Notes under the pieces: generated by a model | What the model was told of the DNA's origin: nothing | Seen by the model: only the letters and a program-made list of their open reading frames with translations | Databases searched by the model: none | Position numbers and translations under genes: made by a program | NCBI RefSeq assembly: GCF_000400935.1 | Contig: NC_021280.1 | Coordinates: 744,001-808,000, forward strand | Direction of reading: 5' to 3' | DNA: 64,000 bases | DNA from: Spiroplasma chrysopicola DF-1 | Lineage (GTDB): Bacteria; Bacillota_I; Bacilli_A; Mycoplasmatales; Mycoplasmataceae | Part shown: positions 403-57,799 of the stretch, piece by piece | Position numbering within the stretch: position 1 is the stretch's first letter | Layout of the letters: each line of letters opens with the position of its first letter

Positions 403-432
403 AAAAAAAAAAAAAAAAAGCAAGGTTTTCAC
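403..432 (-). terminator. Probable terminator of the ABC operon with a 17-nt T tail; also the leader of the methylase
   Basis: On the minus strand an imperfect hairpin (GGT-GAAA-ACC core flanked by AAAG/CTTT) ends in an uninterrupted run of 17 T. It lies downstream of the permease stop at 453 and directly upstream of the methylase start at 363. The stem is weak, so the terminator role is tentative; the homopolymer itself is certain. Confidence 0.45.
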
Positions 433-2597: not shown

Positions 2598-3710
2598 TTA
2601 GAAAAAATTAAGTTCAGAAATTTTTATTTGAGATTCCACTCTTGCTCATTGGGCATTTCACGCTGTTGCATAAGCTCAAGTATTCACAGTTAATTTAATC
2701 TCTAATTTATATTCAGAAACTCATCTTGTATATAATTGCGCTCAACTTTTCATTTGATTAACATTATGATGTCCACGATTAAATAATAAGACATTATCAT
2801 TTGAAAATAATGATAAATCTTTGTAATCAATTTTTCTTGCTTTACTACTATCAAATTCTTCTGTGCCATCATGGTTATTTCAATTATAACCTGTTACTTT
2901 ATAACTCATTTTTGAATATTTTTTCAAAAAAACATCGCGACCCAGGGAAATATCTACATTTAAAACTTTACTATCACTATCTTCTCGTACTGAATTATAT
3001 GCATCTGATCTAACAACTTTACTTTCTAATTCACCTAATCCTTTGAAAATATTTTTATAAGTAATCGCTACATTACCTTTATAATTAGATTCTTCAGTAG
3101 CACTTGCTATTGCATAAGAATAATTAATTTCTGTAATTTTAAAATCTTGGCGTTTAACTCCATATTTAGTATTTTCTTTAATAATTTCATCAATAATAAG
3201 AGTTTCAGATATAGTTATTAAATTATCAAAACTTGTTTTTTGAATAACTGTATTCAAATCTTTTTTTTCTATTAGGGAATGATTACTTAAAATTAAATTA
3301 TCAATTGTTAAATAATTTTCAAATGCATAATCTGAACCAATATATAATAATGTCATCGATGTGTCTGTTACAACTTGTTCAATTACTGGTAATTCTGGTA
3401 AATCAATGATTCAATTATCAAAATTACGAGTAACACTAGCAATAATGACTTTTAGTTCAGCGTCATTGTCTTTATTATAAGGTAATAATCCCATTAAAAT
3501 AGTTCTTGTTACTAGTTCTTCATCATCTAATTTATCCTTAATTTTAAATAAATTAATATCTCCTGTTTTTAACTCAATAGCTGATAAATCAATTGTTGAA
3601 GCTCGTGAAGATAATTTTTGCTCTTCAACATTAAAGTCTTTTGATAAAATTGCGCTAGTACTACTTGTTGCTAAAGTAAGCACACTAAAAATATTTAATA
3701 AGTGTTTCAT
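2598..3710 (-). CDS. Secreted protein of unknown function, paralogue 1 of a three-member family
   Basis: About 370 residues. An N-terminal signal (MKHLLNIFSVLTLATSSTSA) has no lipobox cysteine, so the product is probably released or held by a signal anchor rather than lipidated. Regions shared with the paralogues at 3903-5018 and 9624-10751 are an N-terminal (T)IDL...INL(F/Y)KIKDK segment, a WIIDLPELP linker, a central module with DFKITEI and SNYKG, FLKKYSKMSYKVTGY, and a C-terminus rich in W/A ending ISELNFF immediately before the stop. ATG 3710 is chosen because all three copies start MKHLLNIFS. Trp is encoded by TGA at many sites. I do not recognise a known enzyme or toxin. The central module resembles the beta-rich repeat of the spiralin-like gene in this window. 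Confidence 0.75.
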
Positions 3711-3787
3711 TTTTTTACATCTCACTTTCTTAAATTATTATTGGAATTCATTTGGAAATACATATAGTTATATTTGATACTATCTTT

Positions 3788-3902: not shown

Positions 3903-5018
3903 TTAGAAAAAATTAATTTCTGATATTGTTACTTGGGCTTCAGACTTAGCTCAATAGGCATTTCATGCAGTTGCATAAGCTTTAACTTGAACAAATAACT
4001 TGATTTCTAACTCATAATTAGAAACTCATCTTGTTTCTAATTTCGCTAAACTTATCATTCAATTAACATTATGATATTCACGATTAAATAATAAAATATT
4101 GTCATTTGAATTTAAAGATAAATCTTTGTAATTAACATTTTCACCATTAGAACTATTTAAATTTCAAGTACCACCATTATTATCTCAATTATACCCAGTT
4201 ACTGAATATGACATTTTTGAATATTTTTTTAAAAAAGTGTCTTTACCAAGGCTAATATCTAGATTTAAATACTGATAATCTTCATCTCATTGTATTGAAT
4301 TATAAGCATCTGCCCGAGCAACTTTACTTACCATATTTTTAATTTCCTTAAAAATATAACGGTAAAAAACTATCGTAGTTCCTGTATAATTAGAATTTTT
4401 TCTTGCAATTAAAGTAGCTGAACCATATGAAAAATCTGTAATTTCAAAATCTGCAATAGTAATATCATATTCAGCATTAACTTCTATTACTTTGTCAGTA
4501 ATTCCATATATTGTTAAATCAGAAATATCACCAAGATTTTTGTTTTTAATTGCTTGATCCAAATCATGTTTTGATTCTGATGAAACATTTTTTAAAACTA
4601 AATTATTGATTGTTAAAAAGTTTTTAAACTGATAATCATTCCCAATATATAACATTAATAATGTTCCTTCAGTAATCATGCCTGTATTCATTGGTAATTG
4701 TGGTAAATCAATAATTCAATTATTAATATTTTGATTTACATTTGCTATAACTTTTTGCAATTCATATGTATTCCCCGTATTTACAGGCAATAGACTCATT
4801 AAAATTGTTTTTACAACTAACTGTTGATCTTCTAATTTATCTTTGATTTTATATAAATTAATTTCTCCTCCCATTAAGTTTAAGTTTTCTAAATCAATTG
4901 TATCTTCTTGTTGTAAAATAGTATTACTTTCTTTATAAGTATAATCTTTTACTAATGTTGTACTAATACTAGTTGTTGACAAAATAAACACACTAAAAAT
5001 ATTTAATAAGTGTTTCAT
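3903..5018 (-). CDS. Secreted protein of unknown function, paralogue 2
   Basis: About 371 residues, tandem neighbour of paralogue 1 with the same architecture: signal peptide starting MKHLLNIFSVFILSTT, TIDLENLNL, GGEINLYKIKDKL, a WIIDLPQLP linker, a central module (DFEITDF, NSNYTG), FLKKYSKMSYSVTGYNW, and a C-terminus with AYATAWNAYWA ending ISEINFF at the stop. ATG 5018 has GAGAT upstream as in paralogue 1. It has its own TTGCTT/TATAAT promoter, so the copies are separate transcription units. The function is unknown. The tandem arrangement and divergence suggest a surface-exposed family expanding by duplication. Confidence 0.75.
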
Positions 5019-7911: not shown

Positions 7912-9624
7912 CTATATTTTTGTTTTTCGTAAAAATATCCCATAGCCAGCCCCCATTAAGGCAATGCCCGTAATTGACCAGATAAGATAAATAATTGCAA
8001 TGTTAAATGGCCGTTCTGTGTCTTGATATCCAGTTATTTTATAGATAATATTTTCTCCTTGAGAATCAACGGGAACAAAATTAAATTTAACTGTTCGAAA
8101 ACCAGGAAGCATAAAGTCATAATTATGAATTTTATTATCAGCTAAATAATCATTATTAGCAGTATATAATGATGTTAAGATTAAATTTGTAAACGGATTT
8201 AACATAAATTTAAGTTTAAAATTATATTTTTTTAAATCCTCAATTGTTTGTAAATTAATATCAACAGTTGACTGTCAAATTGGCTTTTGCTTTACATTAA
8301 ATAACTGACTTAACATATAAATCATCATTTTTGTTCCCAAATTATGTTTTGTACTAAAACTTATTTTTTCTTGTGAAAGAGCTAGTCAGTATAATCCTTT
8401 ATCATTAGGATTAGTTTTTTCCCTTGTATCTTTAATTGTAAAATAATTTGAATAATAACTGTTTAATAAATTTGTTATTTCTAATAATTCATTTTTATTA
8501 ACACCATCTAATTGGACGTGTGGTAAATTTGCAAGCGCGTCTCCCAATTGACCAGGACTATTATAATTACTAATATTTTTACCATTAAACCAACTTTTAC
8601 TAAAATCACCTTGATTTTTAATACTATTATTTACTGCTGCAAAAAATTGATAAGAAAAAGTATTTTTAAAATCTTCTGTTAACTCTGTCACATACTTATA
8701 TGTTTTATCTTGCGTTTCAGTAAAAACATTATTATTAACAATATTTTCAAGATCTAAAAAGACTCCTTGGTCATATGCCATTTGAAAATCTATTTTATCA
8801 AAATATGCTATGCAATCCTGCTTAGTCTCTTGATTAGCATCACAGTTATTACTGATTAATTTAAGTGGTTTAATGCTGTTAGTTTTAAAATCTTTATATA
8901 AATTATCTAAAACTCCATTTGGATATTTTTCTTGAATTTGTTCTAAATCATACATATGAGTATAATCAACATATTGAAGGTTAAAAGAACGATAACTTGA
9001 TGGACTATCAGCAAAAATTGTAAACTGAATCATTCCTAAAAAAGGGAAAATCATGAAAATAACTGTTAAAGCCCCAGCGAAACTAGAAGATAATTTAATA
9101 TTTTTTGTTGCAACTAATATTAAAACAATCCCAGAAAATACTAAGTCAAAAATAATTTGAGTAAATAATCCTGGTAAAACTTTACTAAAAAAGAACCCTG
9201 ATTCACTCTTGGTAAATATTCCGACAAAAAATAGAAATAATAAAACACTAAATAAAAATCAAAATAAGATAATAATTTTATTAGCAAATAGTCTCGTAAA
9301 AAAGTAATTATTTTTTGAAACTCCCATTCGTTTTTCTAAACTATAAATCCCATTTTCTTGGTCTTTAATATAAATCTGAATCAAAGAATAAATGTTAAAA
9401 ATCGCGATAAAACAAATTCCAGTGGCATTTGTAAAAATTATTAATAATACTAAGCTATTATCAGAAAAAGTTACTAATTTAGCCGATAATGATCACAAAA
9501 TAATAATATTAATAGCACACATAATTGCAAAAATAATTCAGAATGATTTTGACTTAATTCATCTTGTTAATAGAAAGCGTAAAATTTTAAAAGTTAAAAT
9601 TTCTTGGAATACTTGTTTTTTCAT
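7912..9624 (-). CDS. ABC-2 type permease with a large extracytoplasmic domain
   Basis: About 570 residues. The N-terminal third has several membrane segments (after LLTRWIKSKSFW; LLIIFTNATGICFIAIF; IILFWFLFSVLLFLFFVGIF; IIFDLVFSGIVLILVAT; LTVIFMIFPFLGMI). A soluble insert of about 300 residues follows, and a final helix (IAIIYLIWSITGIALMGAGY) ends RKTKI. This layout (membrane - big outer domain - last helix) resembles ABC exporters that handle surface substrates. The ATG at 9624 overlaps the TAA of the upstream secreted gene (TAATG), and there is no other ribosome binding site, so translation is probably coupled. Confidence 0.75.
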
Positions 9625-10751
9625 TAAAAGAATTTAATTTCTGAAATTATTGTTTGTGCTTCTACACGTGATCAATATGCATTTCATGCTGTGGCCCATG
9701 CTTCTGTGTGTACTACTAATTGAATCTGGATTTGCTTCTCGGAAATTCAACGAACTGAAATTTCTCCATGAGCTTTATTTCAGTTCGTTGAGCTATAGTC
9801 TCTAGTAAATATAACATTATTATCTGAATTGGATCTTAAATTTAATTCTTTATATGTAACATTTTCACCTGTAATACTATTAAGTTCTCTTCTTCCACCT
9901 TCTTCACCACGACCATTATTATCAGTATATCCTGTTATTACATATGACATAGTTGAATATTTTTTTAGGAAGGCTTCTTTCCCCAAAGCAACATCAACGT
10001 CTAATGTTTTAACTTCTGTATCCTCAGCATGTGAATTATATACATTAGATTTTACAACTCTACTTTCCATGTGACCAACTTGTTCATACACATCATTATA
10101 AGTAATCGTTACATTTCCTTTATAATTTGACGTTTCTGTGGCCGAAATAATTGCATAATCATATCAAATTTCCGAAATTTCAAAGTCCTCTCTTTTAACC
10201 CCATATTTGCTGTTTGCTTTAAGAATTTCATCAGTTAAACTTGTTTCTGATAAAACTTTAAGATCATTAAATATATTTTCTTTAATTACATTATTTAAAT
10301 CTTGTTTTTCATTTAAAGAATAATTCGTTAAAATTAAGTCATTAATTGTTAAATAATTCTCAAATTCATAGTCACTTCCAACATATAATAATGTCATTGA
10401 TACATTATTTATCACATGCTCTAATTCTGGTAATTCTGGTAAATCAACTATCCAATTATCAAAATTTTTTGTTGAATTTGCAATCACTTTTTTTAATTCA
10501 GCATCGTTACCTTTATTAAGAGGTAATAAACCCATTAAAATTGTTTTTGTTACTATTGCTTCATCATCAAATTTATCCTTGATTTTATACAAATTAATTT
10601 CTCCTCCATTTAAATCAACATTTTCTAAATCAATTGTTGAAGATAGATTTAGTAATGTATTTTCGCTAAAATTATAGTCCTTTATTAGTGTTGCACTAGC
10701 AGTTGAAGTTACTAAAGCAACAACACTAAAAATGTTTAATAAATGTTTCAT
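9624..10751 (-). CDS. Secreted protein of unknown function, paralogue 3, first gene of an ABC operon
   Basis: About 375 residues with the same plan as the two copies at 2598-5018: signal MKHLLNIFSVVALVTSTASA, STIDLENVDL, GGEINLYKIKDKF, a WIVDLPELP linker, a central module (DFEISEIWYDYA, SNYKGN), FLKKYSTMSYVITGY and the W/A-rich C-terminus ending ISEIKFF directly at the stop. Its TAA shares bases with the ATG of the ABC permease. That overlap ties expression of the secreted protein to the transporter. It is the upstream and therefore probably most highly translated gene. It could be a substrate of the transporter, a substrate-binding partner, or simply a co-regulated neighbour; the sequence does not decide. 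Confidence 0.75.
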
Positions 10752-10894: not shown

Positions 10895-12024
10895 ACATTT
10901 AAGACCACTAAATTCTTTAGAATAAATTTAGGAGGATTAAAAATGATAACAAGTATTATTACTGAAAATGAATTATATAAATTACATCGTGGTTTTAAAA
11001 AGTGGTATGGGCGTGTTGAACCAACTAAAGAAACAAATTATATCTATCATCATTTGTCAAATTATTTTAATTTATGCCATAAATACTATTTAAAAAGTCA
11101 CTCATTAAACCAGTTAATTAAATTATTTTATAAAGGCAAACAAACATTTTATACATGATCAAATAAAATTAAAGAATTTTTATTAAATTCTTATGATTTT
11201 GAATGATTTAAAAAGACTTCAACACGACCAAAAACTATTCATTATCATTATAGTAAAATATATAAAAGAAAAATTGCTAAGATGATTAAAACATACCGAG
11301 AAAAATATGGCACAGGGATATATGAGTTTTATAATTTAACATTAGCAAATTATTTTACCTACCAAAATATGCCAATTAAACATAACATTAAAACATTAAT
11401 AAAATGAGATAAAACATTTAATAATTATTCTAAGCGTAAAAATATAAAGAAAATATATCAACGTTATGAAATGCCCGAATTAGGACATGTTCAACATGAT
11501 GTTAAAATATTAACTAAAAATATGACAGGTTACAAAAAAGATTTGTATATTTTTGATTACATTGATGAAAAATCACGTTATGCAGTGGCTTATGTTTCTG
11601 CGCATAAAACACAAGATATTGCTGCTAAACTATTTGAAAAAGCTTATTTTGAATTTAAAAATATTGGCATTAACATTAAGAGAATTCGAACAGACAATGG
11701 AACTGAATATGTATATAATCATCGTTCAAATTATGCTCATCGAAAAAGTGAATTTACAAAAGCAGTAAATAAAAAAGGAGTTGCTCATCAGACAACTCCA
11801 GTGCGTTCCCCACAGTCAAATGGGAAAATTGAAAGATTTCATCGTAACTGAAATAAGTTTTTTGAATATTTACCAAGATATCTTAAGGAAATTGATGATA
11901 TTGAAAAACAAATTAAAATCTTTCTAAATTATTATAACAATATTCGACGACATAAGAGCATAAATCTTTTAACACCTGCTGAAGCTGTGTTAAAATTTTT
12001 AAAAGACTAACTGGTCTTAAATGT
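10895..12024 (+). mobile_element. Insertion sequence with a DDE integrase-type transposase (IS3/IS481-like)
   Basis: 1,130 bp bounded by a 13-bp inverted repeat: ACATTTAAGACCA at 10895-10907 and its complement at 12012-12024. One transposase gene fills it. No obvious short target duplication is seen. A 28-bp direct repeat touches the left end and recurs 16 nt beyond the right end. Confidence 0.75.
10943..12010 (+). CDS. Transposase, DDE integrase core (rve type)
   Basis: 355 residues from ATG 10943 (AGGAGG upstream) to TAA 12010. The N-terminal half is basic and probably DNA-binding. The C-terminal half has an integrase core: D in GHVQHDVK (first Asp), D in RTDNGTEY (second Asp) and E in SPQSNGKIERFHR (catalytic Glu), followed by the typical YYNNIRRHKSINLLTPAE end. 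All three catalytic residues and an intact frame (with TGA as Trp) suggest the element can still move. Confidence 0.85.
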
Positions 12025-12040
12025 CTATGGTACCTTACAT

Positions 12041-12068
12041 AAATTAATAATTCCTATATAAACCACAC
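12041..12068. repeat. 28-bp direct repeat, right copy
   Basis: Partner of 10867-10894 with two mismatches. It lies between the two insertion sequences, 2 nt before the left end of the IS30-like element. Confidence 0.75.
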
Positions 12069-12070
12069 TG

Positions 12071-13167
12071 TGTAGATTATCATAATAAGTGCAAGTTCTG
12101 AAAAATGAAAAATTCATATGTTATACTTTTATCACTAAATAGAAAGTAAAAACATATGAATTATAAACATTTTATCACAAATGAACGAGCTTTATTAGAA
12201 AGTTATAAAATTCAAGGATTAAAAAATCGTGAATGTGCCAGAAGATTAAATAAACATGAATCTACAATTTCAAGAGAATTAAAATGTTGTAAATTAAATA
12301 AGTATACTGCAAAACAAGCAATATTAGATTATAAAAAACAACGTAGAAAATGTGGCAACAAGAAAAAACTTTCTTTTAATCAGCGAAAATATATTAATTA
12401 CGGATTAAAAAATTTATGATCCCCCGAACAAATTATTGGCCGTTTTAAACAACTAACTAATTTTGAAAAAGGGAATTTCGGTTTTAACTATTCTGATATT
12501 TCCTTAGGAAAAAGTATTTCAACAATTTATCGTTATATCAAAATTAAAGCATTTTCATTAGCGCAAACTACCTTACGCCATTATAAAACTCACACAAAAC
12601 CAAAGTTTACCAATGATAAAAGACATATTTGAGAAATTAAACGCGATAAATTTGACTTTGGTCATTTTGAAGCTGATTTAATTGTTGGGAAAAACAATAA
12701 AAGTTATAAATTAACTATTACGGAAAGATTAACAAATTTGAATTATATTTGCCATCTTGATGATAAAGCATCAAGCAGCATAAATAAAAATTTAATTAAT
12801 TTCTTTAAAAATTCAACAATTCTAAAATATGCCAAATCTTTAACTTTAGATAATGGCTCAGAATTTGCAATGTGAAAAGAATTTGAACAAGATACTGGAA
12901 TTCCAATTTATTTTACAGCACCAAGTTCTCCTTGAAAGAAAGGAACTATTGAACATGAAAATAAACTATTTAGACAAAGATATCCCAAGCATAAAAACTT
13001 AAATAAATATAGTGAAAAGTATGATAAAGAAAACATTATTCTCCTAAATAATAGACCAAGAAAAAAACTAAACTTTAAAACACCAGTTGAAGTATTTCAA
13101 ATGTTTAGTCCATATTTTGATTTATTAAAAACTTGCACTTATCTTGCACTTATTATGATAATCTACA
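12071..13167 (+). mobile_element. IS30-like insertion sequence
   Basis: 1,097 bp with perfect 25-bp inverted repeats at 12071-12095 and 13143-13167. An 11-bp piece of the right end (CTTGCACTTAT) is repeated directly at 13132-13142. The encoded transposase reads out through the right end. Confidence 0.85.
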
Positions 13168-13175
13168 TAATTTAA
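12156..13175 (+). CDS. IS30-family transposase
   Basis: 339 residues from ATG 12156. The N-terminal helix-turn-helix (NRECARRLNKHESTISREL, about residues 27-45) is typical of IS30. The catalytic core shows D in FGHFEADLIVGK, D in LTLDNGSEF and E in PWKKGTIEHENKLFRQ, i.e. a complete DDE triad, with GTIE(H)EN as in the family. The last 11 codons run through the right inverted repeat, and the TAA at 13173-13175 lies outside the element, so this copy uses a stop from flanking DNA. Trp is coded by TGA. Confidence 0.88.
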
Positions 13176-13251
13176 ATTGTGAAAAATTTTTTTAAAATAG
13201 AAAATATTGATGTTTTAAAATATTTATGATCTAATAAATGTGGTGATAAAA

Positions 13252-15264
13252 ATGGAAGAAAAAATTAAATATGAAGTTGAAGCGAAACCTCTTAGTAAAA
13301 TAATTGATGATCTAATTGATAAATCATTTGAAGAAAAAAATTTAAAATCAAAAATAGTTGTACCAAGATATCAGCGCAGTAGAGTTTGAAAAAAAGAAAA
13401 TCAAGAAAGATTTTTAGATAGTTTAAAAATGGGCTATCCTTTTGGAACTTTTATTTTTTACGAAAAAAATGATGGTAGTTTTGATATAGTTGATGGTTAT
13501 CAAAGACTATCAACAATTAAACTATTTATTACAAATCCAAATAAATTTATACGACATGAAGATATTGATCCGGATAATGAAATTAATGAATTAATGAATA
13601 ATGCAAATATTTCAACTAACAAATCAAAAGTTTATGATGAACTATTAAGGTATATTAAGGATTATTTAATTAATCTATCAAAAGAAAATTTTGAACATAT
13701 TCAAATTGCAGAAATTGTAAATTATTTAAAAAGTAAATTAAGTTTTTTAAATGCAGACACTGAATTAACAGAAAAATTAAATGCTGCTTTAAAAGAACCT
13801 ATCTTAAACTTTACTAGACAAGTTTCTAAATTAAATAATATAAAAGTTCCAGTAATTACTTGTTCTGGTAATCCAGGTGCTTTACCTTTTATTTTTGAAC
13901 AAGTTAATACAGGGGGTATAAAACTAAATAAATATGATATTGCTGGAGCTACATGATCAAATAATAAAGTTAAATGCTTAAATACAGATATTATAGACAA
14001 TATCATAAAAAAATATGAGGCTGACTATGATGATGTTGAAAAAAATGATAATTCAAATGATGATACAACGACAAGCGGACAAATTAATAGAGATATTGAT
14101 TTAAACAGTATAAAAAAAGGGAGAAATTTAAATTTATACGAATATATTTACGGATTTGCAAGATTATTAGAATCAAAATACCCTGAATTATTTAAACCAT
14201 CGAAAAAAGATAATTCAATAAATGAAGCAGGTTTTATAATTTTTAATGCTTGTGTTGGAAATAAAATACATAATATATCAAATTTAAATGCTGTTATAGA
14301 AAAAAGATTAGAAAATTGAAATAAAGGTGAAATGCTAAATGCTTTTACAGAAAACATCTTTGAAGCTATTAATATTGTAAGAGATAGTTTAAAAGTAATA
14401 AGTAATTTTAAAAATAATAAACAAAAACATGATTATTTTAGACCTCATACAGTTACTCAACTTGCTTCTATTATTACTGATGTATTTTACTCCCTTTATG
14501 GTTTTGAAATTAATAATGAAACTCCTAAATTTAATAGCCAAGGAATATACAGTGTTAAAATTAGTGAAATTAAAAATAAAGACTGAAAAATAATAAAAAA
14601 CAAATATAAAAAAAATTTAATCAAAAAATATATAATTGATATTTTGGGAAATGACTGGCAAGGAAGTGGAGATAATAGATTAGTATCAATCATGCAACAG
14701 CCTGGATATTATATGAGAGACATTGCAATAGAAGATGTTGTTACATCAGCTAACTATTATTTTGAATCTTCTTTATCAAATGATGACATAGTTAAAAAAA
14801 ATCCAACAGAAAAAGACAAGGTAATATTATCATTAATTTATTCAAATGCTTATTCATTTTTAGAGGCTAATAGTTCACAAAAATATGAATTTGACCATAT
14901 TGTTTCAGGTAATTATTTAATGAATACAATAAGTGAATTTAAAAAACAAAATAAAGGTTTACCTATTAATTCAATTGCCAATTTTGCATTAGTTACTAAA
15001 GAAATTAATATTTTAAAGTCAAATGAAAAATGGGCAAATATAAAAGAAGAAATAAAGAAACTTTTAGAAAAAAAACCAGAATTAAAAGAAAAGACAAATG
15101 CTGAATATTTAGAAAAGTCAATTTTTTTAGTAAATAATGTAGATTTCTCATTTTATAATGAAAAAGAAAACTTTGATAATTTTAGTAAAAAATATAAAAA
15201 TTTCCTAAAAACAAGATGGAATAATATGAAAATAATTTTTGAAAATTCATTAAAAAAACTTTAA
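13252..15264 (+). CDS. GmrSD-like protein: DUF262 (ParB-like) domain fused to a C-terminal HNH-type (DUF1524-like) domain
   Basis: 670 residues. The N-terminal DUF262 signature is clear: VPRYQR at about 37-42, W at about 46, LDSLKMGYPFGTF, and VDGYQRLSTI (80-89) in place of the usual DGQQR motif; FEQVNTGG follows near 220. Near the C-terminus YEFDHIVSGNYL (H at about 549) and NSIANFALVTKEIN with a following Lys look like the H-N-K elements of DUF1524 nucleases. This domain order is that of single-chain GmrSD type IV restriction enzymes, which use nucleotide hydrolysis to cleave modified phage DNA. ATG 13252 is the best start; GTG 13240 is an alternative and the ribosome binding site is weak. 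The adjacent IS and isolated position suggest an acquired defence gene. The target is unknown. Confidence 0.75.
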
Positions 15265-23107: not shown

Positions 23108-24994
23108 TTAAATATTAGCAATTTCAGTTAAAGTAACTTTAAAAGTAAATTCTCCTGTAATTAATTCTGATGTAGCTTTTGCAGTAACTGTAAATAATAC
23201 TTCCCCAGGCACTTGATTTGCATTTTCATCTTGATTATTTGTCAAATCAAAATCAGCAGTTGTAACTGTTACTTCACCATCTTCATTAATTGCAGCTATT
23301 ACACTATCAATAATTGTTTTATCTTTATTTAAATCACCATATTTTTGATCAGACTTTGCTTCTCTTTGGGAATCAACTACTTTAATGTCAGTAATATCTT
23401 TTTGCAAAACTTCTGGTTCAGTTAAAGTAACTTTAAAAGTAAATTCTCCTGTAATTAATTCTGATGTAGCTTTTGCAGTAACTGTAAATAATACTTCCCC
23501 AGGCACTTGATTTGCATTTTCATCTTGATTATTTGTCAAATCAAAATCAGCAGTTGTAACTGTTACTTCACCATCTTCATTAATTGCAGCTATTACACTA
23601 TCAATAATTGTTTTATCTTTATTTAAATCACCATATTTTTGATCAGACTTTGCTTCTCTTTGGGAATCAACTACTTTAATGTCAGTAATATCTTTTTGCA
23701 AAACTTCTGGTTCAGTTAAAGTAACTTTAAAAGTAAATTCTCCTGTAATTAATTCTGATGTAGCTTTTGCAGTAACTGTAAATAATACTTCCCCAGGCAC
23801 TTGATTTGCATTTTCATCTTGATTATTTGTCAAATCAAAATCAGCAGTTGTAACTGTTACTTCACCATCTTCATTAATTGCAGCTATTACACTATCAATA
23901 ATTGTTTTATCTTTATTTAAATCACCATATTTTTGATCAGACTTTGCTTCTCTTTGGGAATCAACTACTTTAATGTCAGTAATATCTTTTTGCAAAACTT
24001 CTGGTTCAGTTAAAGTAACTTTAAAAGTAAATTCTCCTGTAATTAATTCTGATGTAGCTTTTGCAGTAACTGTAAATAATACTTCCCCAGGCACTTGATT
24101 TGCATTTTCATCTTGATTATTTGTCAAATCAAAATCAGCAGTTGTAACTGTTACTTCACCATCTTCATTAATTGCAGCTATTACACTATCAATAATTGTT
24201 TTATCTTTATTTAAATCACCATATTTTTGATCAGACTTTGCTTCTCTTTGGGAATCAACTACTTTAATATCAGTAATATCTTTTTGCAAAACTTCTGGTT
24301 CAGTTAAAGTAACTTTAAAAGTAAATTCTCCTGTAATTAATTCTGATGTAGCTTTTGCAGTAACTGTAAATAATACTTCCCCAGGCACTTGATTTGCATT
24401 TTCATCTTGATTATTTGTCAAATCAAAATCAGCAGTTGTAACTGTTACTTCACCATCTTCATTAATTGCAGCTATTACACTATCAATAATTGTTTTATCT
24501 TTATTTAAATCACCATATTTTTGATCAGACTTTGCTTCTCTTTGGGAATCAACTACTTTAATGTCAGTAATATCTTTTTGACCTGTTTGTGCTTCAGTTA
24601 AAGTATTAGTAAAATTAAAAGTTCCTGTAATTAATTTTGAATCAGATTTTGCAGTAACTGTAAATAATACTTTTCCAGCTACTTGTTTATCTTTTTCATC
24701 TTTATCATTTTTTAAATTAAAATCAGCTACCGTAACAGTTGATTTTAATTTTTTTGATAAACCAACATTAATTGCATCGATTACACTTTTAAGAATTGTT
24801 TCATCTTTATTTAAATCTCCATATGTCTTATCATAATCTAAAATTGTTTTTGGATCATTTACAACAGTTTTTGAAATATCTTCTTTTTCAACTGCTGGAT
24901 TATTGTCATTGTTGGGTGTTTTACAAGCGATAACACTTGTTGCACCCGTCGCGGTAAGACCAAAGGCTCCTAATATTGCTAGTAATTTTTTCAC
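23108..24994 (-). CDS. Spiralin-like surface lipoprotein with one diverged and five near-identical repeats
   Basis: 628 residues. Signal peptide MKKLLAILGAFGLTATGATS with lipobox VIAC (Cys about 24), so it is lipid-anchored on the outer face of the membrane. The mature part is a diverged N-terminal module followed by five repeats of 98 residues (DITDIKV ... YGDLNKDKTIIDSVIAAIN ... VTTADFDLTNN ... LFTVTAKATSELITGEF). Spiralin, the main surface lipoprotein of the S. citri group, has the same (A/S)DF...(V/L)TVTAK...(I)(S/T)GEF pattern in a shorter protein of about 240 residues, so this is an expanded relative. The start is GTG 24994, with AAAGGAT upstream. No Trp is present in the repeats. A 17-nt T run lies about 90 nt upstream. 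Spiralins are linked to binding insect glycoproteins and vector transmission. Confidence 0.88.
   Translation of the reverse strand: MKKLLAILGAFGLTATGATSVIACKTPNNDNNPAVEKEDISKTVVNDPKTILDYDKTYGDLNKDETILKSVIDAINVGLSKKLKSTVTVADFNLKNDKDEKDKQVAGKVLFTVTAKSDSKLITGTFNFTNTLTEAQTGQKDITDIKVVDSQREAKSDQKYGDLNKDKTIIDSVIAAINEDGEVTVTTADFDLTNNQDENANQVPGEVLFTVTAKATSELITGEFTFKVTLTEPEVLQKDITDIKVVDSQREAKSDQKYGDLNKDKTIIDSVIAAINEDGEVTVTTADFDLTNNQDENANQVPGEVLFTVTAKATSELITGEFTFKVTLTEPEVLQKDITDIKVVDSQREAKSDQKYGDLNKDKTIIDSVIAAINEDGEVTVTTADFDLTNNQDENANQVPGEVLFTVTAKATSELITGEFTFKVTLTEPEVLQKDITDIKVVDSQREAKSDQKYGDLNKDKTIIDSVIAAINEDGEVTVTTADFDLTNNQDENANQVPGEVLFTVTAKATSELITGEFTFKVTLTEPEVLQKDITDIKVVDSQREAKSDQKYGDLNKDKTIIDSVIAAINEDGEVTVTTADFDLTNNQDENANQVPGEVLFTVTAKATSELITGEFTFKVTLTEIANI
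23123..24592. repeat. Five tandem 294-bp repeats inside the spiralin-like gene
   Basis: Units begin at 23123, 23417, 23711, 24005 and 24299. I saw one single-base difference in the body (near 24269), plus different sequence at the last few positions of the outermost units. The near identity at DNA level points to recent expansion or gene conversion. Confidence 0.92.
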
Positions 24995-25081: not shown

Positions 25082-25098
25082 AAAAAAAAAAAAAAAAA
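25082..25098 (-). repeat. Homopolymer of 17 A (T on the coding strand) upstream of the spiralin-like gene
   Basis: Uninterrupted A17, 88 nt upstream of GTG 24994. No convincing hairpin precedes it on the minus strand. A TATACT box lies between it and the gene, at about 25040. Confidence 0.85.
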
Positions 25099-25162: not shown

Positions 25163-25211
25163 AAAAAAAAAAAAAAAAGTTACTCTTTAAAATTAAATTA
25201 TAATGAGCAAC
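25163..25211 (-). terminator. Terminator of the racemase-like gene, with a 16-nt T tail
   Basis: GTTGCTC (25211-25205) pairs with GAGTAAC (25185-25179, one G-U) on the minus strand and runs into T16 at 25178-25163. Confidence 0.65.
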
Positions 25212-46996: not shown

Positions 46997-49117
46997 CTAA
47001 TCAATATTTAGGGTATACATTCCTTCTGTTGAGAAACCAACAAATTTTCCATTTTTTAATCTAAGTCTAACCGTTATATCACCAAAATTTCCCTTTCCTT
47101 TTTCTTTAAAACTTAAATCTGAATATAAATGATAAATATTATTGTGTTTGTCGGCTAAAATAATACCCAAGTTTTCAAATTCATAAAATGAAAAGTCTTT
47201 ACCATTACCATAATCAAAACATAATCGTTTTTGAACACTATAATCACTATTTAATGTAGCAATTTCTTTCCCAGAATTACTTACTAAAAAAATTGCTCCA
47301 TTTTTCAACTGCCATAAGTTATCAAAAAAAGCGTTATCAATAATTTGGAGGATTTTTTGAAAAGTTCCATCGGGATTTAATTGAAATAATGTAGAAGTTT
47401 TGGTTCCATCATTAGCCTGATTTAACCCCAAAATATTTCCATTTTGTAAAAAAATAATGTCTATTGGACTAGCCCCAGGGCTGTTAGGGTTATCTTTTAC
47501 TTCTTTTAATATTTTTCCAGTACTACTATCTATTAAATAGCGGGAATAAGTCAAAGAACTAGTATTAAACCGTAAGGCAAGTAACTTATCATTATCAGGT
47601 GTTCTTATAATTTTTGTCCATTCATACTGATAGATTCTGTCAATATATTTACCATCAAAACTAAATAAATGTGTTCCTCATAATACCCCTTTTTCAGAAG
47701 TTACTGCTCCTGATAATAATATTAACTTAGAATCTAATTCAAATGCTGTCTTTATACTCGGAATTTCTCTAAAATTCTGTTCTAACTTTTCTTTTATTGT
47801 GCCTATTTTATCATTAAAACTTCGAAACTCTACTTTAATAAAATAACTATCAATATAATAATCTTTACTATCACTTTTAACTTTAATATTTGCTTCCTTA
47901 TCAAGAACAGCCCCTGGCAAAACTTCAATTTGTTCAGTAAGAACATTACTATTTTTTAATTTAACAGCTTCTAAAATGGTACTAGATTTATAATTTTTAA
48001 TATCCCCTAAATTAATTTCAGTTAAATCATTTGATAACATTTTTCTACCAGTATTACTAAAATATAATTCTAACGAATCACCAAAAACATAAATTGATTT
48101 GCTTTCCCGTTTCGAAACTAAATTTCCTTTTAAGATAATTTGATTATTTTCAACTGTAATAATATCTTCAATATTGACATATTCTAATTTTAAATTTGGA
48201 TTTCCTAATTCAATAATTTTCAATAATTGTTTTAGAGTTGGTGAATTAGTATTGATAAAAAAATTTCTTTTTGTGACATGGGTTAATAAAGAAATCTTTT
48301 GAGGTAAAAAAGAAACTATTATTGTTGAATCATTTTTATAGATGTTACTTGAAGATTTTACATAAATAATTGCATTTTCCCTAGTTATATTTTTAACTAG
48401 TAAATTATCAATTTTTAAATCCGGATTTTTATCCTTTGCTACCGTTAAAATTGTTTCAGCCCGATTATCAGCAATAACTCCTAATTGAGAATTATCAAAA
48501 TGCTCAGATAAATCAATTCGTTGCTTATTTGGAGGAATTATTGATCCGGAATTGTTTTGCCCTGATAAAAAATATCATCCTAAAAGCCCTCCCATTGCTC
48601 CAAACATTAAAATAAAGACTAAACTAAGTAGCATAATTGTTTTTCTCATTTTTGACATATGCAAAAAATGTTGACGATTAATTACCATTATTTGGCGATT
48701 AAAACTTTGTTTTAAGGCGTGATTATTTTTTTCAATTATTTTTGGAATTAATGTTTGCTGTTTTTTTGTAGTTGTTAAACTATTTGAAATTAAATTATAG
48801 CCCTTAATTTTATGAATTGTTTGTTGTGATAATAAGATAGTATTATTAATAACTGGTATTTTGGTAGTGCCATCACCATTATAAATTGAATCTTTTCAGA
48901 TAAAAACATATGAGTCCTGGCGACAAAAAATTAATGCCAAAGGCAAAATGTTTTTATCGTCTAATACATCACGGGTTTTATCAACTTTACATTTAAATAA
49001 ATCTAAGTCATTTAAATTCTTTTCTGGATTATCTTTAACATATTCGATAACGTTTCTAAATTTAAATTGACAATCATAGCACATTTTATTGTAAATTAAT
49101 TCAATTTTATTTTTCAT
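46997..49117 (-). CDS. Surface protein A: cytoplasmic four-Cys domain, one membrane helix, extracellular modules and a propeller-like end
   Basis: 706 residues, no signal peptide. About 1-75: thioredoxin-like small domain with CYDC (C13, C16) and C43, C65, P59. About 76-159: basic linker. About 160-184: one membrane helix (MLLSLVFILMFGAMGGLLGW) with positive charges before it, so the C-terminal 520 residues should be outside. About 200-270: a module with DNRAETILTVAKDKNP and SSSNIY; more such modules to about 430. From about 470: repeats like LFQLNPDGTF and LNSDYSVQK that suggest a beta-propeller. No propeller or redox activity is proven. ATG 49117 with AGGAG upstream. Paralogue at 51419-53494. 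Confidence 0.75.
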
Positions 49118-49345
49118 ATTTAATTTTCTCCTAAAACGATTTACAAACTTTTTAATTATTTGTAATAATAATTATAGCAAAAAATATTTTTTTCGCAAAC
49201 ATAAAGTTTCGTCAGTTCGAATAAGATGGAATAAATTATTTGGTTGTTCAATCGTTTGGACAACTATCTTTAAAAAATAAACAAAATATAAAAAGAATAA
49301 GTTTAACATTAAACTAACCCTATTCTAATTATTTAAATTTATTAA

Positions 49346-50287
49346 CTATTTCTTAACTGGTAAATGTTTATCATAGAATTTAAGAATATCATCCATTACC
49401 TCTTTTTTAATTTTTTCATTTAAAATTTCATGACGAGCACCTGGATATAATTTTATTTCATCATTACAATGGTGTTTTTTATATAATTTAAATGTTTTTT
49501 TAACACTTTTCCCAAAGTTTCCAACAGGGTCATCTTTTCCGGCAATAAATAATAGCGGCAATTTATTAGGTGTTTTAGCAATATTTTTTGTATTGGTAAT
49601 AAAAATTAATCCGTTAAACATATCCTTAAAAGCACTTGTTGAAAAGATTTGTCCCGCTAATGGGTCGCGCTGAAACTTTTCTTGAACTTTTAAATCAGAT
49701 GATAATCATTCTGTCCCGCTTTTCCCCTCTTTACGAAATTTTTTATTTAATGGGGCATATGATAAATTATAGATAAATTGGTCTTTTGCTTTTGGACCAT
49801 ATTTTTTTTGGTGCTTTTCAGCTAAATGGGCTGAAAATTTTAATAACCCTTTTTTATGATGGGCTGTTCCACAAACAACTAAAGCCGCCAAATTATCTCC
49901 ATATAGCATTGCATAATGGCGAACCATAAATGATCCCATTGAGTGTCCAAACATCATAATTGGTAATTCAGGATAATGTTTTTTAATATAAGTTGTTACT
50001 TCATTTAAGTCTTCAATTAATTTTTCTCACCCATTATCTTCTGCAAAAAATCCTAAATCCTCTTTTGCTAATGCTGTTTTTCCATGACCACGGTGATCAC
50101 TTGCTATTACTATATAATGATGTGCTACTAAATATTCGGCAAATTCTTGATATCGCAAAGCATGTTCACAACTACCATGAACCAATTGAATAACCCCTTT
50201 AACTGCACTTAAATTTTTGGGCTTTCATTCATACATTTGTAATTCTGTTTTATCACGTAAAATTTGTTTTCATTCTTTAAATTCCAT
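49346..50287 (-). CDS. Alpha/beta hydrolase, monoacylglycerol-lipase/lysophospholipase-like
   Basis: 313 residues. Catalytic Ser in MFGHSMGSFM (about 117), preceded by ASDHRGHGKTA; Asp in AGKDDPVGNF and His in GARHEIL complete the triad of monoacylglycerol lipase-like enzymes. Cytosolic or loosely membrane-bound; no signal. AAAGGAG precedes ATG 50287. It lies between surface proteins A and B; the 46817-46914 remnant shows that a second copy once followed surface protein A. It may free fatty acids from host lipids, needed by organisms that cannot make them; inference. Confidence 0.85.
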
Positions 50288-50379
50288 TTTAACTTATCTC
50301 CTTTTAATGAGATTATTATACCGCAGTTTTGCTTATCATTCAATTTATAAAAATATTCCTCAACAACCAGCTAATTTAT

Positions 50380-51072
50380 TTAAACAAATTCTTCGATTAT
50401 TGATTGATTTTTTTTATAAAAGCCTGTATGGGCATATGCCATCCGGATTGTACTTTTAGCAATTTCTTTCTTCCGTAATTTCTTATTATAGTTAAAGATA
50501 TTAGTATAAATATCATCAGTGCCAACATATAGATATTTACCTTTAAATTTAATTTTTTTCTTATCAAAATTAGTACAAAAAATATTATATTCTTGTAAAT
50601 TAATACTTCGATTAATGTTTGAAATTGTCATTAAACTAATTTCTGAATATTTATATTTATCTAAAATATCCCGGTAACGCTTACCACTATCTAATTCTTT
50701 TAAGATTTTAATATATAAATCAAAGTGCAAACATTGATATGATTTTCGATCAATTTCAATATCTAACAAAAATACATATTTATATTTATACTACTTTTGA
50801 TTATAATAACGGAATCTTGTTCTTTCATAAAAAACTGGTGCTCATTCAGTAATTAAAGTGACTGGACGTTTACCGTAAAGAATATAACCTTTATTGTTAT
50901 TTGAATATTTTTGGCGTAAACGTAAATCCAATTGTTCATAATGTTCTTGAATAGCTTTTCTAGTTTTATTTTTAACTTCTTCTTCAAAATTCTTAAACAT
51001 TTCAATTTGTTTAAAAATATTTTGTGAATAGTCATTTTGATACAAAGAAAAATTAATACTATTTTGGTACAT
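50380..51072 (-). pseudogene. Decayed ISLre2/UPF0236-family transposase fragment
   Basis: The two parts (51072-50842 and 50769-50380) are in one frame, joined across a TAG at about 50790 after FRYYNQK, then YKYKYVFLLDIEIDRKS. The sequence follows the UPF0236 pattern (long coiled N-terminus, RTRFRYY, then a FLLD block, KYLYVGTDDIYTN with an Asp pair, RMAYAHTG). It also stops well short of the usual length of 400 or more residues. A TGA-Trp is present. It is a dead remnant of a mobile element, marking the surface block as accessory. Confidence 0.6.
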
Positions 51073-51418
51073 AATATTTTTTACCCCTATTCTGATCTGA
51101 TTGAATCCTAATATTTTATTTTCTTTGATATATTCTGTAATCTATAATTGTCTGTAATTTTCTGTAAATAGTCATTTTTATAATAACATAAAATAAAAAA
51201 ATCCTATTTAAATAAATAGGATTAAATGTTTTAATTATCATCGTAAAATTTGATTTATTAATAATCAAGAATGTATGCAATTCTTGGTACCTATTATTGT
51301 TACAAAATAATTTTAGTTAAAATAATACGAATATTCAAAAATACTTAACTAAAATTTAATAATACATTCATCAAAATTTAACTAAAAAATAAAGGAGAAT
51401 AATAAAAATAATTATTTT
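51073..51418. other. Intergenic region downstream of surface protein B
   Basis: 346 nt without a gene. It holds the hairpin at 51200-51223 and a second pair AATTTTAGTTAA / TTAACTAAAATT at about 51309-51356 with a third partial copy nearby. Confidence 0.55.
51200..51223 (-). terminator. Hairpin, 11-bp arms
   Basis: AATCCTATTTA / TAAATAGGATT with a 2-nt loop and a T7 run on the minus strand. A very similar, less perfect hairpin recurs at about 53633-53655. Confidence 0.65.
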
Positions 51419-53494
51419 CTATTCAGTTCTTAATTTATAAACTGAAGCACTACGAGATATCATAAAGAAATCTCCATTTGGAAGTTGAACTGTTCCTAAA
51501 CCGTAGTCTCAAAAACCGGGAACTTGCTCTTTAACAGTACCATCATCATTTAGTTGAAAATTTTCAGACTTACTTGTTGCTAAAATGGTTCCATCATGCA
51601 ATTCAATTATCGAAAAAATACCTCTTTTAAAATCACCAACCTTTTTAATAAAAGTTCCCGCCATTGTTAACTGAAAGATTTTCCCTCCAATACTATCATT
51701 TCATCCTCCAGCTAAAATAGTATTATTTGATAAGTTTATTAGTGTTCCAATGGCCATTGACTCTAGTTCTTCTTTAACTGTTCTAATTATTTCCCCTTTT
51801 TGATTTAATTGGAAAATTGTTCCATTTCATCCCCCAGCTAAAATGGTACCATCTACAATTAAAAATGAATAAATTATAGAAGAGTTATTAATTTTATCAA
51901 TCGTTGAACCATCTTTATGTAAATGTCAAACCGTTCTCCTTTTCGTTGATACTAAAATAGTATCATCATTTAATTTCCCAATTGCAAGGATATCATTATC
52001 ATCCCCCATATCGTCATTAATTTTTGTATTAATTGTTCCATCTGAATTAAGTAAATATAAACCAGTATTTGTTCCAATTAATATCTTATCTATACTATCT
52101 AAATATAATATTCCATAAGCAATTGTAGCATTATTAAAGTGAGTCGCATTTGTAGTTTTTTCTATTACTTTACCAATATTAGGATTAAAAACTCGATAAT
52201 TAACTTGAATTGGGACACTATTTAAAATGTAATCTTTACTATTTCCCGTTACTTGAATTAAAGCACCAGAATTAGAAATTGAATCCGCTTTTACTTCAAT
52301 TTCATTTAAATTTACTTCTGAATTCTTTTCCCCAATTTCAGTAATAATTGTATTTTCTTTTTTATTTAAAATATCATCAAGATTATGCACAGTTAAAACA
52401 TCTGATAATAATTTACGATTACTGTTACTAAAATATATTTTTAAAACATCATCGTTTAAATAAACCTCACTATCTTTAATAACAGTTAAGTCAGCTTGTA
52501 AAATACCATCAATCATTTCTGATTTTTTTATTATAACATTGCTTCTAACCAAATAATCATTTTCATAAGATCCTGCAACAATATCTAATAGTTCCTCTGG
52601 TGTACCTTCTATGACAGTCTTTGGAAAATTTACTTTTTTAACATCAGTTACCAATGTTTTTAAGTTAGATAAATAATGAACTTCAACCGACGAATTATAA
52701 TCATAAATATTACTTGATGATTTTACAAGAATAGTTGCTGATGTTTCGCTAATATTTGTAAGATATAAATCTTCAATTTTTAAATCCGGATTTTTATCCT
52801 TTGCGACAGTCAAAATTGTTTCTTCGCGATTATCAGCAATACCTTCCAATTGGGAATTCTTAAGATGTTCAGCCAAATTTATCCGTCAATTATAATTTGG
52901 TAACTGCCCATTAGAAATATTATTTCTACTTGAAAAATATCATCCTAAAACACCACCAGTTGTTGCAAATAATAAAATAATCACCAAAACAATACTTAAA
53001 ATCATTTTTTTAATTTTGATTATATGCAATAAATTTTGGCGATTCATAATTGCCATTTGCCGATTAAAATGTTTTACAATTGAAGTATTATTTTCACTAA
53101 TAAGTTTTGAAGTAATATCTTGGGTTTGTTTCTTTTTAACTACTATTAACTCATTATTATTAGCATTATGCTCTTTAATCCGATCAATTGTTGTTTGGGA
53201 TAATATCAGTCTATCATTAACAATTTTAATTTTAGATGAACCATCACCATTATATAAATCTTCTTTTCAAAAGAAAACATAAGAATCTTTTTTACAAAAA
53301 ATAAAAGCTAATGGAACAAGGCCATTATCATCATCAATACTTCGATTTTTATCAACAGTACAAAGAAATACTTGCAAATCATCTAAGTCTTTTAAAGCAT
53401 TCTTTTTAGCAACGCTAATAACTTTTTTAAACTTATACTGACAAGTATTACACATGCTATCAAAAAAAACTTGCACTTTGTTTTCCATATTCAA
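51419..53494 (-). CDS. Surface protein B: paralogue of surface protein A, with a clearer propeller-like C-terminus
   Basis: 691 residues. The N-terminal domain keeps C13, C16 (CNTC), P59, C43 and C65 and then FWKEDLYNGDGSSKI. One membrane helix (MILSIVLVIILLFATTGGVL) lies at about 162-181, C-terminus outside. A DNREETILTVAKDKNP module and two further DL..I modules reach about 430. The rest has repeated (H/L/Q)LN.(D/K)G-type strands: LLNSDGTINTKI, LHKDGSTIDKI, QLNQKGEIIRTV, QLTMAGTFIKKV, QLNDDGTVKEQV, i.e. five or more blade-like repeats. ATG 53494 has GGAGGTG upstream. A 15-nt T run sits 63-77 nt before the start, close to an extended -10 (TGTATAAT). Confidence 0.78.
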
Positions 53495-53802
53495 TTCACC
53501 TCCAAATAATACAATAAAAAAATAAATAACTATTTTTAATTATACAGTAATCTTTGAAAAAAAAAAAAAAACTTAATAAGCATTTTTTATTCAAATTATT
53601 TGGTAAATTATGATAAATTTTTAAAGATAAAAATCCTATTTATTAAATAAGATTAAATACTTTAATTATCTAATTTTTTATGGAAACAAATAATAGAGTA
53701 AATTATAAATATTTTTACACCTAAAATTGGTAACAGTTATTGGTAGTAATCATAATAAATATTTACTATGTAAAAAGTAACGCAGTAAATCATTTTATTA
53801 TT
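53495..53802. other. Intergenic region upstream of surface protein B
   Basis: 308 nt without a gene: promoter with the T15 tract near 53545-53571, and a hairpin at about 53633-53655 (one mismatch) that probably ends the upstream operon. Confidence 0.55.
53557..53571 (-). repeat. Homopolymer of 15 A (T on the coding strand) in the promoter region of surface protein B
   Basis: Reading the minus strand, T15 is followed after about 12 nt by TATAAT, so the tract covers the -35 and spacer region of the likely promoter. No good hairpin precedes it. Confidence 0.8.
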
Positions 53803-56844: not shown

Positions 56845-57714
56845 TTAAACATATATTCCATAACGATCAATTAATTGGCGACTTCGTTGTTCTAAAACAA
56901 TGAATAAAATTGCACTAATTGTATACTTTCCAACAAAGATTCCAAAGAAAATTCCGATAAAAATTAACGTATTTTTTCATGAAGCAAATATTGGAGATAA
57001 ATCATTACTTCCTCCATGATTATGATAAAGACCACTATCAAATGGTAAGCCCCCACTAATATGTTCAACTGTTTCCGAATGCACCTCAAATCCAGCAGCA
57101 CCTGTGCTCAATAATATCTTGGCAACAAATAAAACTGCTAAAGCTTCAACTATTGCACATAACGGCACAATTAAACTAAATGCTAAGATTTTTTTTCAAA
57201 ATTTTACTTTAACAATTCGGTGATGATGATCATGTGATGATTTTGTTAAGTGCGGATTATGAATATTGTGGTCATCAACATTTTCCTCAACAAACTCCTT
57301 ACGATAAGCACTAAATAAAATATAATAAATAAATCAAGTAATAAATATTACTAATATATTTGATAACATAAAGAACGCCATTTCTAATCATGAATGGTGT
57401 CCGTCAACTAAATTATGTAATCATGGTAATGCAATTCCATCCAATAACGCAAACCATAAGCCAATAATAGCAACTGAATAAATTAAAACTAAGGTGTCAA
57501 AAAAACGAATGCCAAATGTCGCTCCTCACGGCATTGGAATATCAAAAATTTCTAATAAACTTAAACCAACAGCAATTGCTAGAAAAACACCAGCAAGTGT
57601 GATTTTAAAAACTAAACTTTTTTGATTATACAATTCCTTTTTAAAAATTGATTCTTTAACCCGGTTTCAAAGCAAATCTCGTTTTACTTTAATTTCTGCT
57701 TCTTTTTTTTCCAT
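56845..57714 (-). CDS. ECF S-component-like membrane protein with histidine-rich loops
   Basis: 289 residues with about six helices (FKITLAGVFLAIAVGLSLLE, FFMLSNILVIFITWFIYYIL and others). Its first helix resembles that of S components. Two loops are rich in His: DDHNIHNPHLTKSSHDHHHR between helices 4 and 5, and EVHSETVEHISGG ... YHNHGG before the last helix. Such loops often bind Zn, Ni or Co. ATG 57714 has GGAGG upstream and a canonical promoter. The substrate, perhaps a metal or a metal-bound vitamin, is inferred only from composition. ECF membership is tentative. Confidence 0.6.
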
Positions 57715-57782: not shown

Positions 57783-57799
57783 AAAAAAAAAAAAAAAAA
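57783..57799 (-). repeat. Homopolymer of 17 A (T on the coding strand) at the end of rnpB
   Basis: Immediately follows the last paired bases of RNase P RNA (CATAAC) and acts as its terminator tail; also lies upstream of the -35 of the next gene. Confidence 0.85.

Follow-up and report, generated by a model that had tools for sequence, protein, structure and literature searches.

Spiroplasma surface proteins joining a cytoplasmic CxxC domain to an extracellular propeller resemble switchable receptors or adhesins rather than redox sensors

Phase-variable and recombining families of surface proteins are well known in mycoplasmas. In Mycoplasma hyorhinis, homopolymer tracts in the promoters of the Vlp lipoproteins switch their expression (PMC10502178). 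Regarding domain order, one helix connects a cytoplasmic domain to a six-bladed propeller outside the cell in PknD of Mycobacterium tuberculosis (PMC3601408), and in NHLRC2 and plant SOQ1 a thioredoxin-like domain and a six-bladed NHL propeller are found in one chain, forming a cleft on one side (PMC6107167). In the published account of Spiroplasma genomes, propeller genes are counted as 'PQQ' genes of unknown function.

We analysed a window of 64,000 nucleotides from the complete genome of Spiroplasma chrysopicola DF-1 (1,123,322 bases), in which codon use follows table 4. Two of its genes, A and B, need TGA to be read as Trp to keep their frames open. The start of B is the ATG at 53488, with the Shine-Dalgarno sequence GGAGGTGA upstream, and its product has 691 residues if counted from an upstream TTG. 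The features discussed below are as follows, in window positions.

46997-49117, minus strand: coding sequence of protein A, 706 aa, architecture as in B
48800-49117, minus strand: A residues 1-106, cytoplasmic four-cysteine domain
48581-48637, minus strand: A residues 161-179, transmembrane helix
47000-47782, minus strand: C-terminal part of A (from about residue 446), repeats of propeller type judged by sequence, with 22% identity to B in this part
51419-53488, minus strand: coding sequence of protein B (ATG start, 689 aa, translated with table 4)
53171-53488, minus strand: cytoplasmic domain of B (residues 1-106), containing C13, C16, C43, P59 and C65
52946-53002, minus strand: the only transmembrane helix of B (residues 163-181), with its positive flank inside
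52187-52891, minus strand: B residues 200-434, three tandem extracellular modules of about 75 aa, by hhalign
51422-52168, minus strand: B residues 441-689, predicted six-bladed NHL-like beta-propeller, from the model and the Pfam propeller matches of paralogues
53539-53544, minus strand: TATAAT, the -10 box of the presumed promoter of B, which follows the T tract after 12 nt
53557-53571, minus strand: poly-T tract T15 upstream of B

A hydrolase and a broken transposase-like remnant (50380-51072, minus strand; Pfam gives no confirmation) lie between A and B, and no sign of a function shared with A and B was seen for them. Elsewhere in the window there are three proteins of about 370 aa, paralogous to one another and apparently secreted (2598-3725, 3903-5018 and 9624-10751, minus strand) and, beside two transposase-like genes at 10943-13175, a plus-strand gene (13240-15264) whose protein start is by eye of the DUF262/GmrSD type. 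When A was searched against Pfam and NCBIfam, nothing but one sub-threshold NCBIfam line was returned (E 0.0012), and B likewise returned sub-threshold lines only.

The overall architecture is consistent in the two proteins and their relatives. B has four cysteines in all, at 13, 16, 43 and 65. A shares these and has a fifth, C633, and both proteins keep P59. A single strong hydrophobic helix was found in each of the 22 aligned relatives; the preceding 15 residues contain 2-5 Lys or Arg and the stretch that follows 0-2, and at least three cysteines precede the helix, compared with no more than two in the outer part. From the charge bias and the cysteines before the helix, the N-terminal end is therefore predicted to be inside and the C-terminal end outside. 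The three modules of B are copies of one unit of about 75 residues (hhalign Prob 98 for modules 1 and 3, 97 for 1 and 2, and 88 for 2 and 3), and A likewise carries three such modules. They are not spiralin repeats: the comparison with the spiralin repeat stayed at background level, and there was no Pfam Spiralin match for the modules of A and B.

For the C-terminal part, B residues 441-689 show six repeats of about 40 residues each, and some of the Pfam propeller families matched by relatives score above their cut-offs. A single-sequence AlphaFold model of B residues 422-689 has pLDDT 81 and pTM 0.81 and contains 25 strands, including the end of module 3. Foldseek aligned this model to propellers with E 1.5e-10, and with VIA-align, six-bladed NHL domains and a Campylobacter protein reached Z of 22-24, the alignments spanning about 230-245 residues. 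The C-terminal domain of B is thus predicted to be a six-bladed NHL-type beta-propeller, on one single-sequence model of B alone. The first-pass annotation had proposed four shared cysteines and P59, one membrane helix with the ends on opposite sides, extracellular modules and a C-terminal propeller. The alignment, the topology of all 22 relatives and the repeats of one unit agree with this description, as does the structure prediction in the case of B. In two relatives, L064 and L069, near-identical blades stand in series in the propeller, a sign of recent blade amplification. Another propeller-repeat protein of about 838 codons (L031, on the 38.7-kb contig G006:C3) resembles the outer part of B only.

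The inner-domain profile hits 14 places in the same genome, corresponding to about 14 copies, of which about eight are intact and the rest are broken or partial. With the searches pooled, the domain was found in 12 of the 14 sampled genomes of the genus, while among 198 genomes of the order only chance matches occurred outside the genus. Two of these matches (L051 and L052) are phosphoglycerate mutases by eye. Scans of genome contigs and viral contigs found no further relatives of the domain. One relative resides on a plasmid of S. citri, where it is listed as a hypothetical protein. With about 14 copies in this genome alone, and with most other genomes of the genus also encoding homologues, the architecture of A and B is not a product of chance. 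Judged from these comparisons, A and B belong to a previously unnamed, clade-specific, multi-copy family of predicted single-pass surface proteins of Spiroplasma.

Different outer parts are attached to the inner domain and helix within this family. For example, the propeller alone follows in L037, modules and propeller in A, B and L017-L019, and spiralin-type domains and propeller in L064 and L069. The two spiralin domains of L064 score 28 bits against Pfam Spiralin (cut-off 25), and L064 matches a spiralin-like lipoprotein by blastp at 1e-20; L035 also has a spiralin-type domain outside the helix. In L020, L021, L028, L029 and L040, the outer parts are not propellers. The first four of these, from about five genomes, share another kind of outer part and have no T tract, and L020 and L029 adjoin a ruvA-like gene; this type is perhaps the ancestral member.

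When the copies are compared region by region, identity changes abruptly along the proteins. Between B and the paralogues L003 and L004 of the same genome, identity is 91-94% for the inner domain but only 34-35% for the propeller; between B and its presumed S. syrphidicola orthologue (L016), the two figures are 68% and 71%. The synonymous distance (dS by NG86, for which values near 1 are rough) between B and L003 is 0.18 at residues 1-186 and about 1.0 beyond. Between L003 and L004 it is about 0.1-0.2 up to residue 440 and then 1.2. The pattern is reversed for B and L016, with 0.79 inside and 0.42 beyond. As the synonymous distance steps in the same way as the identity, selection alone is an insufficient explanation. 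Breakpoints fit best at residues 194, 177, 440 and 363, which adjoin the helix or fall on module boundaries, and none of 1000 permutations reached the observed value. By these patterns the paralogues are mosaic, their breakpoints coinciding with domain boundaries, where recombination between copies gives rise to new ectodomains. The orthologous pair A and L036 has a dN/dS of about 0.08 for the inner part and 0.6 for the propeller, which indicates purifying selection on the former and fast divergence of the latter.

B and six paralogues carry tracts of 15-17 T upstream (T16-T17 in the six paralogues), starting at -80 to -99, and a perfect TATAAT follows 12 nt after the tract in six of the seven copies. 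A and several other members have a promoter without such a tract. The whole genome contains 26 runs of at least 14 T. Seven are upstream of this propeller family, six are before five lipoprotein genes, two are before membrane proteins and one is before a methyltransferase-like gene; the remainder are before other or no recognised genes, including one resembling ffh. A binomial estimate for the seven family tracts is 4e-16, which is overstated since the paralogues inherited their tracts together. Runs of T12 number 27 in the window compared with 4.5 in shuffles, and none of 100 shuffles was as high. The tract length also differs among close relatives: the presumed S. syrphidicola orthologue of B has T17 compared to T15 in B, and sister copies of another species have T16 and T24. 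Tracts precede relatives in presumed S. syrphidicola (G013), presumed S. eriocheiris (G002) and a further genome (G010) as well.

Some tracts of the window are upstream of other genes. A T17 (25082-25098) and a T16 (25163-25178), both on the minus strand, are upstream of a repeat lipoprotein gene (23108-24994, minus strand). Its product contains near-identical tandem repeats of about 90 residues, by eye like the second half of a spiralin-like lipoprotein, and four other lipoprotein genes of the genome have similar T tracts upstream. Another T17 (57783-57799, minus strand) is 68 nt upstream of a membrane protein gene (56845-57714), and a third (403-419, minus strand) is upstream of the left-edge gene, DNA methyltransferase-like by eye, which is possibly part of a phase-variable restriction-modification system. 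A literature search combining Spiroplasma, homopolymer tracts and phase variation found no paper devoted to the subject.

We account for these observations by a family of modular surface receptors or adhesins that recombines, is probably phase-variable and keeps its cytoplasmic domain constant; to this explanation we assign a probability of roughly 0.6. Outside the cell, the six-bladed propeller on its three-module stalk would bind a ligand, probably of the insect host, as its fold and location suggest. Inside, the constant CxxC domain of about 106 residues, common to relatives with quite different outer parts, may engage one common cytoplasmic partner or anchor. The promoter tracts would probably switch expression by slipped-strand mispairing, so that different cells could display different members. 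On the other hand, A and B could be ordinary diversified surface proteins without any switching, with the poly-T tracts as AT-rich promoter elements and the mosaics as neutral gene conversion. The genome is indeed AT-rich, and T tracts are also found where no downstream gene was recognised and before the ffh-like gene. Moreover, the tract of B covers the place of the -35 element, and a change in its length would therefore leave the spacing between -35 and -10 unaltered; this, like the tractless promoters of A and several other members, weighs against our preferred explanation. Nevertheless, the excess of T12 runs over shuffles, the concentration of long tracts upstream of the propeller family, lipoproteins and the methyltransferase-like gene, and the length differences among orthologues and sister copies all argue against this reading, and we regard it as unlikely, though by no means far-fetched.

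The remaining alternatives concern the inner domain, which the first-pass annotation had called thioredoxin-like and linked to a transmembrane redox sensor; in such a sensor, a CxxC switch of thioredoxin fold would be coupled to ligand binding by the outer propeller. Among Pfam families, Thioredoxin and Erv1/Alr tie for the largest number of matching inner domains, 2 of the 19 tested, and thioredoxins outrank 142 control pieces for three profiles in the expected register, with the CxxC falling on CxPC and P59 near the cis-proline; the thioredoxin profile score is 22.9 compared to 10.4 (sd 2.0) for column shuffles. However, significance was not reached in any calibrated search, with a best E value of 0.035 for Pfam Thioredoxin (PF00085) and 1.1 for thioredoxin in the PDB profile search. 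The score is also sensitive to the choice of rows, with Prob 80 for ten rows and 24 for eleven, and the signal of the window-type subset falls to background when the cysteines are masked. The AlphaFold model of the inner domain from the two-row alignment of A and B has a pLDDT of only 45, and an ordinary thioredoxin is already encoded by the same genome. The thioredoxin likeness is thus weak, standing as a ranking over controls but not as a significant match or a confident model.

Conservation was compared over 41 distinct copies of the inner domain. C13 is present in every domain covering that position, and C16 in all except one decaying copy, L050, in which C65 is lost as well. C65 itself is kept in 37 copies and replaced by His in three. 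C43 is found in 24 copies, with Ile, Val or Tyr in the other 17, and P59 in 30, being missing from whole subfamilies. The E. coli thioredoxin fold has no position matching C65, and this residue was ruled out as a thioredoxin feature; a near-invariant cysteine there, where thioredoxin has no catalytic need of one, and a proline absent in a quarter of the family both speak against the redox sensor. Neither P59 nor C43 is conserved through the family. The redox sensor finds no support of its own, and we consider it quite improbable. Alternatively, the inner domain could be a zinc-binding interaction domain with C13, C16, C65 (or His) and a variable fourth ligand, while the outer part works as in our preferred explanation. 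Other bacterial surface proteins have a cytoplasmic zinc ribbon before the membrane helix. The near-invariance of three positions, the exchange of Cys for His, which is usual at a zinc ligand, and the joint loss of C16 and C65 in the decaying copy are all consistent with it. Against it are the frequent replacement of C43 at the fourth position and the zinc-finger families, none of which matched significantly in the Pfam and PDB profile searches. The anti-sigma zinc domain (HxxxCxxC) was ruled out, as there is no His at the required position. We would give the zinc-binding domain a little less than even odds. By sequence, the near-invariant cysteines fit metal binding as well as redox chemistry and, in terms of the whole pattern, the metal-binding reading fares somewhat better than the thioredoxin-like one, though both stand; a structural or metal-binding role of these cysteines seems more likely than redox sensing.

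Overall, A, B and their relatives look like switchable surface receptors or adhesins, not redox sensors. That a propeller head is joined to a cytoplasmic domain under such strong conservation points to signalling or a common anchor, not to mere coat change. A more ambitious version, which we think rather unlikely, is a clade-wide Spiroplasma platform, in which exchangeable, phase-switched outer parts (propellers, spiralin domains and others) would all report to one conserved cytoplasmic CxxC domain with its helix, and this domain would signal inward via a shared partner; a wall-less bacterium would then possess what amounts to a modular repertoire of receptors. The named genes and their tracts offer targets for testing how an insect-associated bacterium adheres to its host and hedges its bets.

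Finally, we compare the family with the known systems. The first-pass annotation held that no described protein has this order of domains. This has to be qualified, as PknD shares the order of inside domain, helix and outside six-bladed propeller; it differs in that its inside domain is a kinase, whereas the inner domain here is a small CxxC domain without a Pfam kinase match, and the present family is multi-copy and recombining, with extra stalk modules. In NHLRC2 and SOQ1 both domains are on the same side, while those of A and B are on opposite sides of the membrane and the thioredoxin likeness of the inner one is weak. The 'PQQ-like' account of Spiroplasma propeller genes does not, in its accessible part, describe the inner domain, the topology, the mosaicism or the promoter tracts. 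Spiralin (PF05215) is a lipoprotein without the helix or the inner domain and does not match the modules of A and B, but spiralin-type domains are placed outside the helix in L064, L035 and L069. The Vlp system differs in having poly-A tracts and lipoproteins, compared with poly-T tracts and type II membrane proteins with a propeller here, whose switching is presumed; nevertheless, both are multi-copy surface families with a homopolymer tract in the promoter region, present as T15-T17 in seven copies of our family (in B, but not in A).
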